A stretch of 64,000 nt of DNA from Geothrix limicola. GTDB taxonomy: Bacteria; Acidobacteriota; Holophagae; Holophagales; Holophagaceae. Below the pieces are notes generated by a model. The model worked only from the letters and a program-made list of their open reading frames with translations, ran no database searches and was not told where the DNA came from. This document shows, piece by piece, positions 42,764-48,560 of this stretch. The position numbers were made by a program, and so were the translations under genes. The stretch is from NCBI RefSeq assembly GCF_030268085.1, contig NZ_BSDE01000005.1, positions 1-64,000 on the forward strand. The letters are read 5' to 3'. The stretch's first letter is position 1. The number at the start of each line of letters is the position of its first letter.

Positions 42764-43648
42764 ATGGCGCGTCCTCCCGTCCTCCCCGGCCCCCGTCCCG
42801 ATTGGCTGAAGATCCGCGTGCCGGCCCCGGAAGTCGTCGCCGAGGTGGAGGGCCTGATCCGAGAGCAGCGGCTGGTGACGGTCTGCGAGGAGGCCCGCTG
42901 TCCGAACCTGCACGAATGCTGGGGCATCCACCGCACGGCCACCTTCATGCTCATGGGTGACATCTGCACGCGGCACTGCGGCTTCTGCAATGTCGGCAAG
43001 GGGAAGCCCGGCACCCTGGACCCCGACGAACCCCAGCGGGTGGCCGAGGCCGTGGCCCGGCTCGGCCTGAAGTTCGCCGTGGTCACCTCCGTCAACCGCG
43101 ACGACCTGCCCGATGGCGGCGCGGCGCATTTCGCGGCCACCATCCAGTGGATCCGCACCCTGTCGCCCCACTGCGGCATCGAAGTGCTCATCCCCGATTT
43201 CCGCGGCAGCGAAGCGGCCCTCCGGACCGTTCTGGACGCGCGTCCCGACGTGCTGAACCACAACGTGGAGACCGTGCCGCACCTCTACAGGCGCGTGCGG
43301 CCCGATGCCGACTACGCCCAGAGCCTGGAAGTCCTTCGCCGCACGGCCGAGTGGCGGGACGTGCATGCGCCGGCCATGCGCGTGAAGAGCGGCATCATGG
43401 TGGGCCTGGGCGAAACGCCTGATCAGGTGCTTGAACTGATGGCCGACTGGCGGCGCCACCGCGTGGACATCGCCACCCTCGGACAATACCTGCCGCCCTC
43501 GGAGTTGCACCTTCCCCTGCACCGCTTCGTGGAACCCAGCGAGTTCGACATGTACCGCCAGAAGGGCCTGGAGATGGGCTTCCAGCGCGTGGAGTCGGCG
43601 CCCCTGGTGCGCTCCAGCTACCACGCCGGAGAAGGCTACGGAGCCTGA
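42764..43648 (+). CDS. lipA: Lipoyl synthase LipA
   Basis: Radical SAM enzyme inserting two sulfurs into octanoyl groups bound to lipoyl domains. The 294-residue product has both [4Fe-4S] motifs: the auxiliary cluster CEEARCPNLHECW and the radical SAM CTRHCGFCNV, with HRTATFMLMGDIC between. NHNVETVPHLYRRVRP, KSGIMVGLGE and the C-terminal RSSYHAGEGY are also present; the penultimate Ser-Ser-Tyr supplies the auxiliary-cluster serine ligand. GGAGG precedes the ATG closely. No lipB or lplA is nearby. The convergent neighbour encodes a lipoyl-domain protein, 38 bp away. Confidence 0.96.
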   Translation: MARPPVLPGPRPDWLKIRVPAPEVVAEVEGLIREQRLVTVCEEARCPNLHECWGIHRTATFMLMGDICTRHCGFCNVGKGKPGTLDPDEPQRVAEAVARLGLKFAVVTSVNRDDLPDGGAAHFAATIQWIRTLSPHCGIEVLIPDFRGSEAALRTVLDARPDVLNHNVETVPHLYRRVRPDADYAQSLEVLRRTAEWRDVHAPAMRVKSGIMVGLGETPDQVLELMADWRRHRVDIATLGQYLPPSELHLPLHRFVEPSEFDMYRQKGLEMGFQRVESAPLVRSSYHAGEGYGA

Positions 43649-43686: not shown

Positions 43687-44808
43687 CTAGACCTGGGCGT
43701 GGACGTTCATGTTCAGGAACTTCTGTTCGAAGGCCGCCCAATCCAGCGTGCCCGCGCCCTGGGCGCCTTCGGGCGTGCGGAACCGGGTGATCTCCTCCTG
43801 GTACCAGTCGATGACCGGCTTGCCGATCTTCAGCGTGCCCAGTTCTGAAGCGAGGTCGCTGGGGGTCAGCAGGCAGACCCAGCCGCGATCGTAGGGGCTG
43901 TGGATGAGTTCGGCCGGGTCGGTCTTCAGGCCCGCATTGTCATGCTCGATCCGGCCGGAGATCGGCGCGGCGACGTGAACGATGCCCGCGGCACCCTTGA
44001 GGCTGAAGAGCGTGTCACCCTGCTTCACGGCCTTGCCCCGTTCGGGCAGCGTGATTTCCTTCACGGTGCCCAGGGCCTTGCTGATGAAGTCGTCGATGCC
44101 GATGCGCACCTGGCCCTCGGGCTCGATGCGGACCCAGGCGTGGCCGGGAGACAGGAAGGCGCCACCGGGCACGCAGAATTCGGTCGCCGGCACCACCTCG
44201 GCCATTTCCGGAGCCACCACGCGAACGTTGGGCAGCTTGGCTGCTTCGAGCCTCGCCTCGCGCTTGATGAGCAGCTTCCGGGCGAACTCGCCGAGTTCAT
44301 CGGCCGTGAAGGGCTTCTGCACATATTCACAGGCGCCCTGCTGCAGCGTCTGGACGGCGGTCTCGATGCTGCCGTAGCCCGTGATTACCACCACATCCAT
44401 GTCGGGGCGCAGGTGCTTCACGGACTTCACCACCTCCACGCCGTCCATGTCCGGCATCTTCAAGTCGGTGAAGACGAAATCGTAGTCGTGGCGCTGGATC
44501 AGGCCCAGGGCCTCGGGGCCGTGCTCCACCGTGTCCACACTGAACCCTTCGAGCACGAGGATGCGCCGGAAGGAATCGAGCACCACGGCCTCGTCGTCCA
44601 CGGCGAGGATACGTGCCTTGGGATTGGGCACCTCGACCCGCTTGAGACTCTTGGCCTCGTGGGTGAAATCGAGGCGGATGGAGGTGTTCAGGACGGCCTC
44701 GCGGGCCTGGCGCGCGCGCTTCTCCTGCATGCGCCGCAGGTTGGTACGCACGAGGAAGTCAATGCCGACGAAGGCCACGAACATGAATAGGATCAGAACG
44801 GCGGTCAT
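43687..44808 (-). CDS. Membrane-anchored response regulator receiver fused to a GcvH-like lipoyl domain
   Basis: 373 residues. One N-terminal membrane helix (about 2-20) and a basic linker. A receiver domain (about 65-180) follows, with acidic pair DD, phosphoacceptor Asp115 in FTDLKMPDMDG, Thr in ITGYGS and Lys165 in QKPF. A complete GcvH-like domain (about 215-340) comes next: GHAWVRIEPEGQVRIGIDDF, LGTVKEITLPERGKAVKQGD, the lipoyl site SLKGAAG with Lys271, APISGRIEHDN and SPYDRGWVCLL. Lys271 aligns with the lipoylated lysine of glycine-cleavage H protein. There is no DNA-binding domain, so output is not ordinary transcription control. ATG at 44808 has GGAGG 6 nt upstream. Last gene of the redox operon, 4-9 bp after the kinase. 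Confidence 0.88.
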   Translation of the reverse strand: MTAVLILFMFVAFVGIDFLVRTNLRRMQEKRARQAREAVLNTSIRLDFTHEAKSLKRVEVPNPKARILAVDDEAVVLDSFRRILVLEGFSVDTVEHGPEALGLIQRHDYDFVFTDLKMPDMDGVEVVKSVKHLRPDMDVVVITGYGSIETAVQTLQQGACEYVQKPFTADELGEFARKLLIKREARLEAAKLPNVRVVAPEMAEVVPATEFCVPGGAFLSPGHAWVRIEPEGQVRIGIDDFISKALGTVKEITLPERGKAVKQGDTLFSLKGAAGIVHVAAPISGRIEHDNAGLKTDPAELIHSPYDRGWVCLLTPSDLASELGTLKIGKPVIDWYQEEITRFRTPEGAQGAGTLDWAAFEQKFLNMNVHAQV

Positions 44809-44817
44809 GACCACCTC

Positions 44818-46344
44818 CTAGGTGAGGGTTGGAATGATGGGTTTGCCGATTTCGGAGCCGGGGACCGTGGGCAGGCGCAGCGTGAAGCAGGTCCCCTGGC
44901 CGGGCTCGCTCTGCGCCTCCAGGGACCCGCCGTGGGCCTCTACGATGCCCCAGCTGACCGCCAGGCCCAGGCCCGTGCCGTGATTGCCCTTGGTGGTGAA
45001 GAAGGGTTCGAAGATGCGCGGAAGGTCCTCGGCGGGAATGCCGTAGCCGCTGTCCTGCAGGAGGAATTCGATGGAATCTGAGGGCCCGGGGCGGGTCGTC
45101 GCTCGAATGGTGCCGCCCTCGGTCCCGATGGCATCCGCCGCGTTCAGCAGGAGGTTCACGATCACCTGTTCGATCTGATTCGCGTCCGCGTGGGCCGTCG
45201 GAAGGTCCTGGGCCAGGTCGAGGGAGAGATCCACGTGGTTCAGCGACAGCTGGGTCATCACCACGGACACGGATTTCCGGATCACGTCATTGAGGTCCAT
45301 GGGCTTGCGGGCCGGAGCCGCGGGCCTTGCGAAGTCCAGCAGGCCACGGATGATGCCTCGGCAGCGCACCGTCTCGCGCACGATCACGTCCAGATCCTCA
45401 CAGGCGGAGGCGTCGTGCTCCATGCGCTTGCGCAGGAGTGAGGCGTAGCTCAGCACGCCCGTCAGGGGGTTGTTGATCTCGTGGGCGATGCCGGCCGCCA
45501 AGCGGCCCACGGAGGCGAGCTTGTCGGCCTGGGCCAGCTGGCGGTGGGTATCCGCCAGTTTGCCTGTCATCTCGTTGAAGGCCGCCGCGAGCTGGCTGAG
45601 CTCGTGCCGGCCGTTCACGGGAATGGTGCTTCCCAGATCGCCCTCACTCACGCGGCGCGTGCCTTCGACGAGCGCCGCCACCGGACGCACCACCAGGCGG
45701 CGGTTGAGCCACCAGAGCATGGAACTGCCGGCGAGGATGGCGAGGATCGCCGACGATACGATCACCATGCGGCTGTGGGCGATTTCGCGATCCACCTCGT
45801 CGAGGGAGACGTTCACATCCAGCACGCCCAGCAGGCTCTGCTTGGCGCTGTGGGCATGGCAGGCGGCGGTGGAGCAGGAGGGTTCGTTAGGGATGGGCGC
45901 GATGACGCCCAGGACCCGCGCTCCGTCCGCGGTCCGGAAGGTGCGCGCGCGGGCCTGGATCTCCAGGCGCTCCAGGGGCCTGCCCTCCGCGTGGCAGGCG
46001 TAGCAGGCCTCACCGCGGATATCCAGGCTGGTGCCGATCTCCTCCGCCGCGGAGGAGAACATGATCTTGCCTTCCTTGTTGAAGACCCGCACTTTCCGGA
46101 TGCCCTGCTCCTGCAGCCCGCCGACGGAGCGGATCTGCCGGTGCAGGTTCTCCCGGCGGTTCTCGAGCATGTCGAAATGGGTCGAGCTGCGGATGGTTTC
46201 ACTGAGCTGGTCGGCGCTGCGGGTGCGCTCGGCCAGCAGTTGCGCGGTGTGCGACCGCAGGACGGCCACGGCCATCCCGCCGATCACCAGCGCCGTCGCG
46301 AGGCCGGCGCCGAAGATCAGACGGGTGCCGATGCGGGTTCGCAT
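44818..46344 (-). CDS. Sensor histidine kinase with two c-type haem motifs in its periplasmic domain
   Basis: 508 residues. First membrane helix about 9-29. The periplasmic sensor (30-190) contains CYACH (Cys114-His118) and CSTAACH (Cys157-His163), a CxxCH and a CX4CH covalent haem-binding motif. A second membrane helix (about 193-214) leads to a HAMP domain, then HisKA with GRLAAGIAHEINNPLTG (His288). The HATPase domain has N box QVIVNLLLNAADAI and G boxes DSGYGIP and GTGLGLAVSWGIVEAHGG. Periplasmic haem-c sensors of redox potential are known in Geobacter-type signalling proteins. Expected partner: the receiver-GcvH protein encoded next. It follows the NrfD gene after 3 bp. Confidence 0.9.
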   Translation of the reverse strand: MRTRIGTRLIFGAGLATALVIGGMAVAVLRSHTAQLLAERTRSADQLSETIRSSTHFDMLENRRENLHRQIRSVGGLQEQGIRKVRVFNKEGKIMFSSAAEEIGTSLDIRGEACYACHAEGRPLERLEIQARARTFRTADGARVLGVIAPIPNEPSCSTAACHAHSAKQSLLGVLDVNVSLDEVDREIAHSRMVIVSSAILAILAGSSMLWWLNRRLVVRPVAALVEGTRRVSEGDLGSTIPVNGRHELSQLAAAFNEMTGKLADTHRQLAQADKLASVGRLAAGIAHEINNPLTGVLSYASLLRKRMEHDASACEDLDVIVRETVRCRGIIRGLLDFARPAAPARKPMDLNDVIRKSVSVVMTQLSLNHVDLSLDLAQDLPTAHADANQIEQVIVNLLLNAADAIGTEGGTIRATTRPGPSDSIEFLLQDSGYGIPAEDLPRIFEPFFTTKGNHGTGLGLAVSWGIVEAHGGSLEAQSEPGQGTCFTLRLPTVPGSEIGKPIIPTLT

Positions 46345-46347
46345 GGC

Positions 46348-47520
46348 TCAGGCCCCTGTTCCCGGCAGCTTGGGACTGGCCAAGGGGCCGTCGGGAAAGA
46401 TCGGGAAGGTCCGCACTGCGAAGGCGAAGACCGCCATGCCCGTCGCCACGAGGCCCAGGGACACGATGACTTCCATGCCCGAAGGCAGGTAGCGGACGCC
46501 GGAGGCGGCTTCCATGCCCGTGATGCTCACGTTCAGGCGGTTCATCACGAAGCCGAGCACCGCCATGAAGGCCCCGGCCACCAGCCAGTCCGGGTTGGAG
46601 CGCAGGCGGCGGAAGGACATCAGCACCACCGGGAGGATGACGCCCAGGCTGAATTCGAGGAGGAACATCTTCCCCTCGTACCCGAATTCAAGGATGCTGC
46701 CGAAGGCATGGTTGCGGCGGATCGCCTGGATGCGCATGAGTCCGTAGATGCCGAGCGCGACGACCATCCCGCGGGCGAGCGGTTCGAGCAGGTCCAGCTC
46801 CAGATGACGCTGGAAGGCCCGCCCGCTCAGGTAGGATTCGAGAATCATCATGCCGATGCCCGCGCCGATGGCGGAGATGTAGAAGTGGAGCGGCAGCATG
46901 GGGGAATACCAGAGCGGATGCAGCTTGCTCGGCACGATGAGGTAGAGGGATCCCAGCGAGGACTGGTGCAGGGTCGAGAGGATCACGCCGAGGATGACGA
47001 GGGGCGTGATGAGGCGGTGGATGAGCCGCGCCGGAGCATGGAACCCGAAACGTTCGAAGACCACCGGCGAAAACTCCACGGCCAGCACGGTGGTGTAGAG
47101 CATCACGCACCAGGCCACCTCGAACATGACGGAGTGCGGATTCCAGTAGACGATGGCGTGCCAGATGCGCCATGGCTGGCCCAGATCCAGCAGCAGGGCC
47201 ACGATGACGAAGGCGTAACCGAGGAAACCCGTCAGGATCGTGGGCCGCACGATGGGCTCGAAGCGCTTCAGGTTGAAGAGGTGGACGATGGCCGTGAGCG
47301 TGAAGGCGCCGGCGGCAAGCCCCACCCCGCAGAGCAGGTCGAAGCCGATCCAGAGCCCCCAGGGGAACTGGTTGCTTAGGTTGGTGACCGCGCCCAGCCC
47401 CTTGGTGAAGCGGATCACGGTGACGGCGCAGAAGGCCAGGAACAGGACGACAAAGATCGCCGTCCAGAAGCCGGGGCGGAATCGGCGCGGCAGAGTCGCG
47501 GCGGCAGCGGCGATGTTCAT
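46348..47520 (-). CDS. NrfD/HybB-type polysulfide-reductase-like quinone membrane subunit
   Basis: 390-residue integral membrane protein with about ten helices. NrfD-family proteins exchange electrons or protons with menaquinone in complexes such as hydrogenase 2, nitrite reductase and Qrc. Family features include GLWIGFDLLCGVGLAAGAFTLTAIVHLF, LLLDLGQPWRIWHAIVYWNPHSVMFEVAWCVMLYTTVLAVEF and LHQSSLGSLYLIVPSKLHPLWYSPMLPLHFYISAIGAGIGMMI. These place it nearest HybB. The ATG overlaps the ferredoxin-subunit stop by 4 bp (ATGA). No hydrogenase, molybdopterin or multihaem catalytic subunit is encoded nearby. Confidence 0.9.
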   Translation of the reverse strand: MNIAAAAATLPRRFRPGFWTAIFVVLFLAFCAVTVIRFTKGLGAVTNLSNQFPWGLWIGFDLLCGVGLAAGAFTLTAIVHLFNLKRFEPIVRPTILTGFLGYAFVIVALLLDLGQPWRIWHAIVYWNPHSVMFEVAWCVMLYTTVLAVEFSPVVFERFGFHAPARLIHRLITPLVILGVILSTLHQSSLGSLYLIVPSKLHPLWYSPMLPLHFYISAIGAGIGMMILESYLSGRAFQRHLELDLLEPLARGMVVALGIYGLMRIQAIRRNHAFGSILEFGYEGKMFLLEFSLGVILPVVLMSFRRLRSNPDWLVAGAFMAVLGFVMNRLNVSITGMEAASGVRYLPSGMEVIVSLGLVATGMAVFAFAVRTFPIFPDGPLASPKLPGTGA

Positions 47521-48269
47521 GATCGGTCCTCCCGTCCATTGGTATGGTTCGCGGCCTTCGCCACGGCTTCCCGGCGCGCGGTGATCCAGTGCACGCCATA
47601 CAGGAAGACGCCCCAGACGCCGACGAAATCAGGGATGTTGGAAAGCACCTGCCAGGTGCGCATGGCCGGCGGATCCGCGGGCAGGTTCGACTTCAGGCCG
47701 AGTTTCTCGAATGGCACGCTGGAAATCATCATCACCGAGGTGCCGCCGGCCTCCGTGAGGCCGTAGATCTGGTTCACGTAATCGCCGGGCTTCTGGCGGA
47801 TGCGCGTCCTGGCCTCCCAGATCAGATCCTCCTTCTTGCCGAAGGTGGTGGCGCCGTACTGGCAGGCTTCGGCGCAGGCGGTGGGCTTACCGTCCTTGAC
47901 CCGGCCTGCGCACATGATGCACTTGCCGACGACGGGAACCGGGCGGTCCCACTGGTATTTCGGGATCTCGAAGGGACAGGCCATCATGCAGTAGCGGCAG
48001 CCCATGCAGCGCTCGGCGTCATAGACCACGGGGCCATCCGGCGTCTTCTTCAGCGCCGCGACAGGACACACGGAAGCACAGGTGGGCACTTCGCAGTGCA
48101 TGCACAGGCGGCGGACGTTGAGACCTTCGTGCTCGTGGACCGTGGTCCACGTGTAGGCCGTCAACACCTCCTCTACCTGGCCTGGTAGCTTGTTCTGCTC
48201 CTTGCATGCGGAGCTGCAGGCGCCGCAACCGATGCAGCGCGTGGCGTCGATGAGAAGGCCCATGCCCAT
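47517..48269 (-). CDS. Four-cluster ferredoxin-like iron-sulfur subunit (DmsB/HybA/NrfC type)
   Basis: 250 residues with four Cys clusters: CIGCGACSSAC (from Cys12), CMHCEVPTCASVC, CMGCRYCMMACPF and CIMCAGRVKDGKPTACAEAC. Together they hold up to four [4Fe-4S] clusters. The C-terminal helix DFVGVWGVFLYGVHWI probably anchors it to the membrane, as in HybA. It has no Tat or Sec signal, unlike HybA, so it may face the cytoplasm. The start at 48269 follows AGGAGA with 4-nt spacing; the open frame upstream to 48482 is AT-rich leader. First gene of the four-gene operon and expected electron partner of the NrfD-like protein. Confidence 0.9.
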   Translation of the reverse strand: MGMGLLIDATRCIGCGACSSACKEQNKLPGQVEEVLTAYTWTTVHEHEGLNVRRLCMHCEVPTCASVCPVAALKKTPDGPVVYDAERCMGCRYCMMACPFEIPKYQWDRPVPVVGKCIMCAGRVKDGKPTACAEACQYGATTFGKKEDLIWEARTRIRQKPGDYVNQIYGLTEAGGTSVMMISSVPFEKLGLKSNLPADPPAMRTWQVLSNIPDFVGVWGVFLYGVHWITARREAVAKAANHTNGREDRS

Positions 48270-48388: not shown

Positions 48389-48560
48389 CATTATTAAGAT
48401 AAAAGCCCGAGAGGTGGCCTTCATCTAGAGATAAACAGGGGTATTTTGAATTAGGGACTTCGATAGGTTTTGATTTTTGCAAATTCCCCCAAGAGGTCCA
48501 CTAAGTTGCGCCGAAGCCTCCGTGGGCCAAGCCCTCCTTCGTGTACGCTGCAAAGAAAAA

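Follow-up and report, generated by a model that had tools for sequence, protein, structure and literature searches.

The window analysed here comprises 64,000 nucleotides of a Geothrix limicola contig (NZ_BSDE01000005.1, positions 1 to 64,000). On its minus strand, the gene at 44818..46344 starts with ATG and encodes a sensor histidine kinase of 508 aa with two haem-c motifs, as judged from the open reading frame (ORF) and its domain matches. A unit of TM1, a Cache/PAS-like sensor and TM2 (residues 9-213; 45706..46320, minus; AlphaFold model, fold matches and hydrophobicity) is followed by HAMP (215-263), HisKA (280-341) and HATPase_c (387-493) domains in Pfam. The phospho-acceptor His288 (45481..45483, minus; domain match and box) lies in the HisKA H-box AHEINNP, and with the boxes NLLLNAAD (397), DSGYGIP (431) and GTGLGL (456) the protein has the features of a sensor histidine kinase. 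The first haem-c motif, CYACH, occupies residues 114-118 (45991..46005, minus), and the second, CSTAACH, a CX4CH motif, residues 157-163 (45856..45876, minus); His165 (45850..45852, minus) stands at +2 from the second haem His (CX4CHxH). The original prediction had placed both motifs between two membrane helices, which was confirmed by the ORF and hydrophobicity: they lie between hydrophobic 19-residue windows at about 8-29 and 195-213, and from this topology both are predicted to be periplasmic. Residues 31-195 contain four Cys, every one inside CYACH or CSTAACH; 200,000 shuffles of this stretch gave CxxCH in 0.3% and both motif types in 0.006%.

The operon, not mentioned in the original prediction, bears most on function. 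It starts with an HmcB/HybA-like 4Fe-4S protein (47517..48269, minus, from the likely start MGMGLLIDATRC; the longest ORF begins at 48482; ORF and family models) and an NrfD/HmcC/HybB-like membrane protein (PF03916; 46348..47520, minus; family models), followed by the kinase and a regulator (43687..44814, minus; Pfam and alignment). HmcB and HmcC overlap by 4 nt, and gaps of 3 nt separate HmcC from the kinase and the kinase from the regulator. The regulator combines an N-terminal membrane helix, predicted from sequence, with REC (69-175) and GcvH-like (225-324; Pfam E 1.7e-17) domains, and no DNA-binding domain was found in it with Pfam. Of the 42 Holophagaceae-type loci L039-L080, 41 have it after the kinase, the remaining locus stopping at a contig edge, and the REC residues D73, D74, D117, T145 and K167 are intact in all 42 regulators. 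Three loci (L041, L060, L078) have, next to kinase and regulator, an Fe-S/NrfD pair sharing no more than 47-51% identity with that of the window, while HmcC is 84-91% identical in most close loci, as if the pair had been swapped for a paralogue.

No Tat signal was seen in the sequence of the Geothrix-type HmcB, which is probably cytoplasmic, and direct contact with a periplasmic haem would then be ruled out. Among matches under E 1e-40 in loci from L066 on, a Tat-like pattern occurs in the Fe-S protein of loci from the Desulfobacterota search, of Deltaproteobacteria-titled loci (L084, L089) and of Ignavibacteriales loci, with L263 as the exception among all these, and is missing in Geothrix and other Acidobacteriota loci (except L132 and L137).

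For conservation of the motifs, 56 loci were collected by a scan of genome contigs with six peptide seeds, two of which held motif letters and biased the collection accordingly. Identity was at least 66% in 43 of the loci, titled Geothrix, Holophagaceae or Acidobacteria apart from one Deltaproteobacteria and one Bacillota title; the other 13, at 38-51%, were titled Zixibacteria, Ignavibacteriales, Aminicenantes, Deltaproteobacteria or Acidobacteria/Terriglobia. Of the 57 sequences thus compared (the window and the 56 loci), 56 have both motifs; the exception, L085, keeps the first motif and reaches the contig edge before the second. This rules out chance occurrence, and the second motif is not absent from close orthologues, one of the findings by which the original prediction was to be refuted. 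A whole-sensor search, independent of motif seeding, succeeded in 33 of 36 genomes of the genus, the three without a match being 72, 93 and 77% complete. In an alignment of 30 rows (window plus 29 of the 55 full-length loci), the Cys pairs and His of both motifs and Met59 (46168..46170, minus) are invariant. By profile search, 90 of the 297 genomes from the same phylum as the window have sensors, as do at least 96 of the 247 from the phylum to which genome G331 belongs.

More distant members differ in both sites. A motif table was made from the contig-scan loci, loci of the phylum-wide profile searches and similar sources plus 100 chosen regions, weighted to divergent members and excluding near-copy loci such as those of the same-genus search; 4 of 184 distinct sensors spanning fewer than 125 residues were dropped, and clustering at 80% left 121 non-redundant sensors. 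The first motif is combined with an X4 second site in 83 and with X2 in 14, and X2 stands alone in 16; rarer are X4 alone (5), the first motif with X3 (2) and with X5 (1). The CX3CH form is CYTRCH (L195 1294-2907, L205 1318-2904) and the CX5CH form CYNSTLCH (L162 2602-4239). Identical site and spacing in 88 of the 121 sensors exclude CX4CH as a lineage quirk. The first motif is missing in 5 of these 88. His +2 after the second motif is present in 82 of the 88 X4 sensors compared with 1 of 30 X2 sensors, and its retention in all five X4 sensors lacking the first motif suggests that CX4CHxH is one unit independent of haem 1 and excludes His165 as a ligand required for haem 1. In a quick tree built without the motif columns (of 119 inner branches 35 starred, 51 open), the first motif takes 4 changes and second-site spacing 9. 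Two sensors without the first motif, L136 and L140, are nested (97*) inside an otherwise two-motif clade (99*), which points to loss of this motif.

The relation of the sensor to known haem sensors was examined by profile and structure comparison. Its match to PF21563 is weak (21.4 bits, cut-off 27), so the kinase sensor is not filed under this family, and with Pfam at E up to 1 the window protein gave no match to PF11845 (DUF3365/sCache_heme). A profile of the 30 sensors searched against the PDB ranked 3b42 (GSU0935) first (E 4.3e-7). With an insertion of two residues, CX4CH aligned over the only C-x2-CH of 3b42, and Met59 over Met60 of GSU0935, with the register counted by hand (His144 being chain position 110 and Met60 thus position 26). 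The AlphaFold model of residues 28-200 is Cache/PAS-like with pLDDT 85, falling to 65 and 69 at the motif loops (model residues 91-100 and 131-140). Foldseek placed WalK sensors on top and GSU0935 at rank 3 (E 7e-5, 23% identity); the superposition on 3b42 is poor (TM 0.38 by query, rmsd 13.8), perhaps due to the swapped-dimer structure of the latter. VIA-align fitted the model to a WalK sensor with Z 15.1 and rmsd 2.4 over 137 residues; 3b42 is absent among the 50 VIA-align matches listed, which excludes nothing. Profile, fold matches and the Met59/Met60 alignment thus support the suggested haem-c PAS-type sensor akin to Geobacter chemoreceptors. Since CX4CH lies over the single haem site of GSU0935, it would be the core site, and CYACH, by the same alignments, the extra one, without which some relatives exist. 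Of the original two-haem sensor, the conservation of both motifs holds, with the correction that the unusual CX4CH stands at the family core site and the ordinary CYACH is the addition.

Neighbourhoods were compared after removal of those representatives, 21 kinases and 2 others out of 118, whose flanks came to less than 4 kb in all. Matches to HmcB-like and HmcC-like models within 5.5 kb were found for 40 of 64 X4 kinases but for none of the 11 kinases of the one-haem CxxCH type (Fisher 8.5e-5), and at 50% clustering for 19 of 31 vs 0 of 7 (p 0.008); these values are rough, as the rows share descent, and the HmcB model may also catch other ferredoxin-like proteins. For 24 of the 64 X4 kinases no such pair lies within the flanks covered. 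X4 kinases have the pair with the first motif (36/59) and without it (4/5), so haem 1, and hence two haems, is not strictly needed for the association. Kinases whose two sites are both CxxCH have the pair as well, in 4 of 10 cases (0/2 for X3, 0/1 for X5), so the CX4CH spacing is not the only one that goes with it. Among the larger groups of this sample, only one-haem CxxCH kinases show no pair. The corresponding association with GcvH-like domains is not significant at 50% clustering (10/31 X4 vs 0/7, p 0.16).

The GcvH-like domain of the regulator lacks the lipoyl lysine: the column of the ESxK turn holds Ala276 in the window, K in 2 of 42 regulator orthologues, and K in 5 of the 82 readable of 99 GcvH-like stretches of the loci (17 unreadable), none preceded by ES. 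A lipoylated GcvH output is thereby excluded. In relatives that lack REC, a helix resembling that of the window regulator, as judged by eye, goes with a GcvH-like part, as if REC had been inserted between the two. Counting listed matches that start at profile position 9 or earlier, with distances counted by hand, 21 of the 22 TM-GcvH-like proteins among the matches listed (118 genomes) lie within 1.7 kb of an NrfD-like match, and the remaining one is close to where its contig ends; G366, a genome without a sensor among the matches listed, contributes two of the 21. Several GcvH-like proteins are clustered in L236 (3-4247), where they are fused to REC, and in genomes G384, G346 and G420. Although the GcvH-like domain has no lipoyl lysine, the regulator gene is convergent, at 32 of 42 loci (L039-L080), with an ORF (42764-43648 (+) in the window) that we take to be lipoyl synthase-like.

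Two haem motifs in one sensor are not new. According to the accessible text of PMC8396549, GSU0599 and GSU0591 are signal transducers with two haem motifs of the signature CX2-4CH, GSU0599 being a two-component protein; an excerpt of PMC3831638 adds Adeh_2011 and Adeh_3383 as two-motif transducers, and both sources, as far as available, trace the Geobacter proteins to Londer et al. 2006. With two CX2-4CH motifs in one predicted periplasmic sensor, the window kinase belongs, by its motifs, to the GSU0599 kind of two-haem sensor kinase. In two loci, L251 and L252, a two-motif kinase is accompanied by a REC protein (about 480-530 aa), a stand-alone two-motif protein and genes with 7 and 12 haem motifs, the gene between these last two being cytochrome b561-like in L252. 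Both loci look like the GSU0599/GSU0591 cluster kind, and their gene kinds (7-haem, cytochrome b, 12-haem) are those of GSU0591-0594, including cbcBA. In the portions available, GSU0594 and GSU0593 are named cbcA and cbcB (PMC7726332), GSU0592 is given 12 haem motifs (PMC2825233), and CbcBA is described as working near -0.2 V and induced when better acceptors are absent (PMC12307469). Not far from a two-motif kinase, within clusters of cytochrome or Fe-S/NrfD genes, stand-alone TM-Cache-TM proteins of ~280-310 aa with two haem motifs and no kinase domain are encoded (L248 5133-6023; L249 5929-6867; L250 9379-10269; L251 12814-13656; L252 4859-5767). The neighbour of the kinase in L246 is an NtrC-type (sigma-54) regulator. 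By locus order, an NtrC-type regulator presumably also stands beside GSU0599/GSU0591, and we take GSU0598 to be the cbcBA regulator BccR.

While two-haem sensors of this kind are already known, the operon setting of the window kinase was not found in print. A literature search, covering mostly titles and abstract starts and few subscription papers, returned no paper on the Fe-S/NrfD/kinase/REC-GcvH set and none linking CX4CH with a histidine kinase or BccR with CbcBA; by title, none on glycine cleavage, NrfD and a response regulator was on topic, and by titles and abstract starts the Geothrix kinase and heme literature contained none on the window kinase.

On balance, we consider it fairly probable that the protein is a membrane-bound redox-sensing kinase with two covalent c-type haems, which senses a pool of electron carriers and has its output at the membrane via the REC-GcvH partner. 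Haem 2 would be held by Cys157, Cys162 and His163, with the invariant Met59 as likely distal ligand. In GSU0935-type sensors, oxidation frees the axial Met, which is thought to switch signalling (PMC8396549, available part), and the conservation of this ligand pair in the present sensors makes a redox switch at haem 2 the simplest explanation: oxidation would weaken the Met-iron bond, the helices would move and the kinase output would change. Haem 1 (CYACH) may be accessory, passing electrons to haem 2 or tuning its potential; the electron exchange or two-step redox sensing of the original prediction is a candidate mechanism. The redox signal would be coupled to the co-encoded Fe-S/NrfD pair, and because of the Fe-S/NrfD and cytochrome neighbours the kinase most likely reads the redox state of the menaquinone or periplasmic cytochrome pool. 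In the genus Geothrix it would phosphorylate the REC of the membrane-tethered partner; since the GcvH-like domain family is found by NrfD proteins, the output is probably at a membrane complex rather than a promoter. The sole PF01578 match of the genome is CcsB-like and below the NCBIfam cut-off (135.3 vs 187.6 bits), and maturation of the CX4CH site is thus assumed.

The same haem site could instead serve a gas sensor, in which NO or CO on the haem iron displaces Met59 and the kinase reports gas, not redox. GSU0582 and GSU0935 are stated to bind CO and NO (PMC8396549, in part), and DUF3365 haem-c Cache domains fused to signalling modules are ascribed properties typical of NO sensors (PMC12889525, in part), but the window protein has no DUF3365 match, gas binding needs no second haem, and what recurs next to the kinases, among the gene kinds searched for, is Fe-S/NrfD proteins and cytochromes; we regard this alternative as unlikely. 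Less probable still is that a single haem is attached and signals alone, be it haem 1 or haem 2, with the other motif vacant, structural or bound to another metal. The missing first site in 5 of 88 X4 sensors with the nested loss in L136/L140 and the X2, X3, X4 and X5 forms of the second site fit such a state, while every row of the 30-row alignment has the Cys and His of both motifs, the second-site variants keep C...CH, and the homologous site of GSU0935/GSU0582, whose haem ligands are stated, holds haem in crystal structures (PMC8396549, section available).

A different objection concerns the output. Kinase and Fe-S/NrfD pair may be merely co-transcribed and the true output a distant DNA-binding regulator, as with the NtrC-type partners of relatives. 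Speaking for this are the sigma-54 regulator paired with the kinase in L246 and the finding that 34 of 38 two-motif X4 kinases with long flanks have, nearby, REC genes that encode no kinase domain; yet the adjacent Holophagaceae regulator has all REC residues in every case, and that of the window lies 3 nt downstream of the kinase and has no DNA-binding domain in Pfam, so we give a distant regulator a low probability.

Two conserved haem sites, an electron-transfer pair and a tethered regulator suggest that the cell keeps watch on its respiratory chain and adjusts it, and we favour the redox-sensing kinase with membrane output. Possible, though rather doubtful, is an extension to a respiratory feedback loop free of transcription, in which the two-haem kinase would read the quinone/cytochrome redox state at its periplasmic face and, via the REC placed between membrane helix and GcvH-like domain in a companion protein of the NrfD complex, would switch the Fe-S/NrfD complex of its own operon from the cytoplasmic side. 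How anaerobic bacteria, metal reducers among them, detect the potential of the electron chain is a question to which the sensor family brings a concrete candidate redox sensor: its members occur by Fe-S/NrfD pairs or by multihaem cytochromes at many loci of Acidobacteriota and Desulfobacterota type, and one of its locus kinds resembles that of the low-potential cbcBA oxidase. The lipoyl-less GcvH-like proteins by NrfD, and a regulator built from one, point to phosphorylation control of a respiratory complex that involves no transcription.

Compared with known systems, the window kinase shares the kind of fold, the position of the second motif, the axial Met60 (here Met59) and the order TM-sensor-TM-HAMP with GSU0935/GSU0582 (PDB 3b42, 3b47; PF21563), which differ in their single haem, CxxCH spacing and chemoreceptor output. 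The sCache_heme/DUF3365/Tll0287 proteins (PF11845) likewise have a periplasmic Cache fold with a c-type haem (PMC12889525, in the text available), the haem here being putative, but form a CXXCH family, unlike the window sensor with CX4CH and no PF11845 match. The Fe-S and NrfD pairs HmcBC, HybAB and QrcCD agree in domain pair and order, whereas the window proteins fall below the equivalog cut-offs (HmcB 243.5 vs 420 bits, HmcC 336.6 vs 550) and their four-gene operon has no catalytic or cytochrome subunit. By published description, GSU0599/GSU0591 of Geobacter sulfurreducens also have two CX2-4CH motifs, with GSU0599 annotated as two-component; these sit by cbcBA-type cytochromes, while the window kinase sits by an HmcB/HmcC-like pair and a TM-REC-GcvH regulator.
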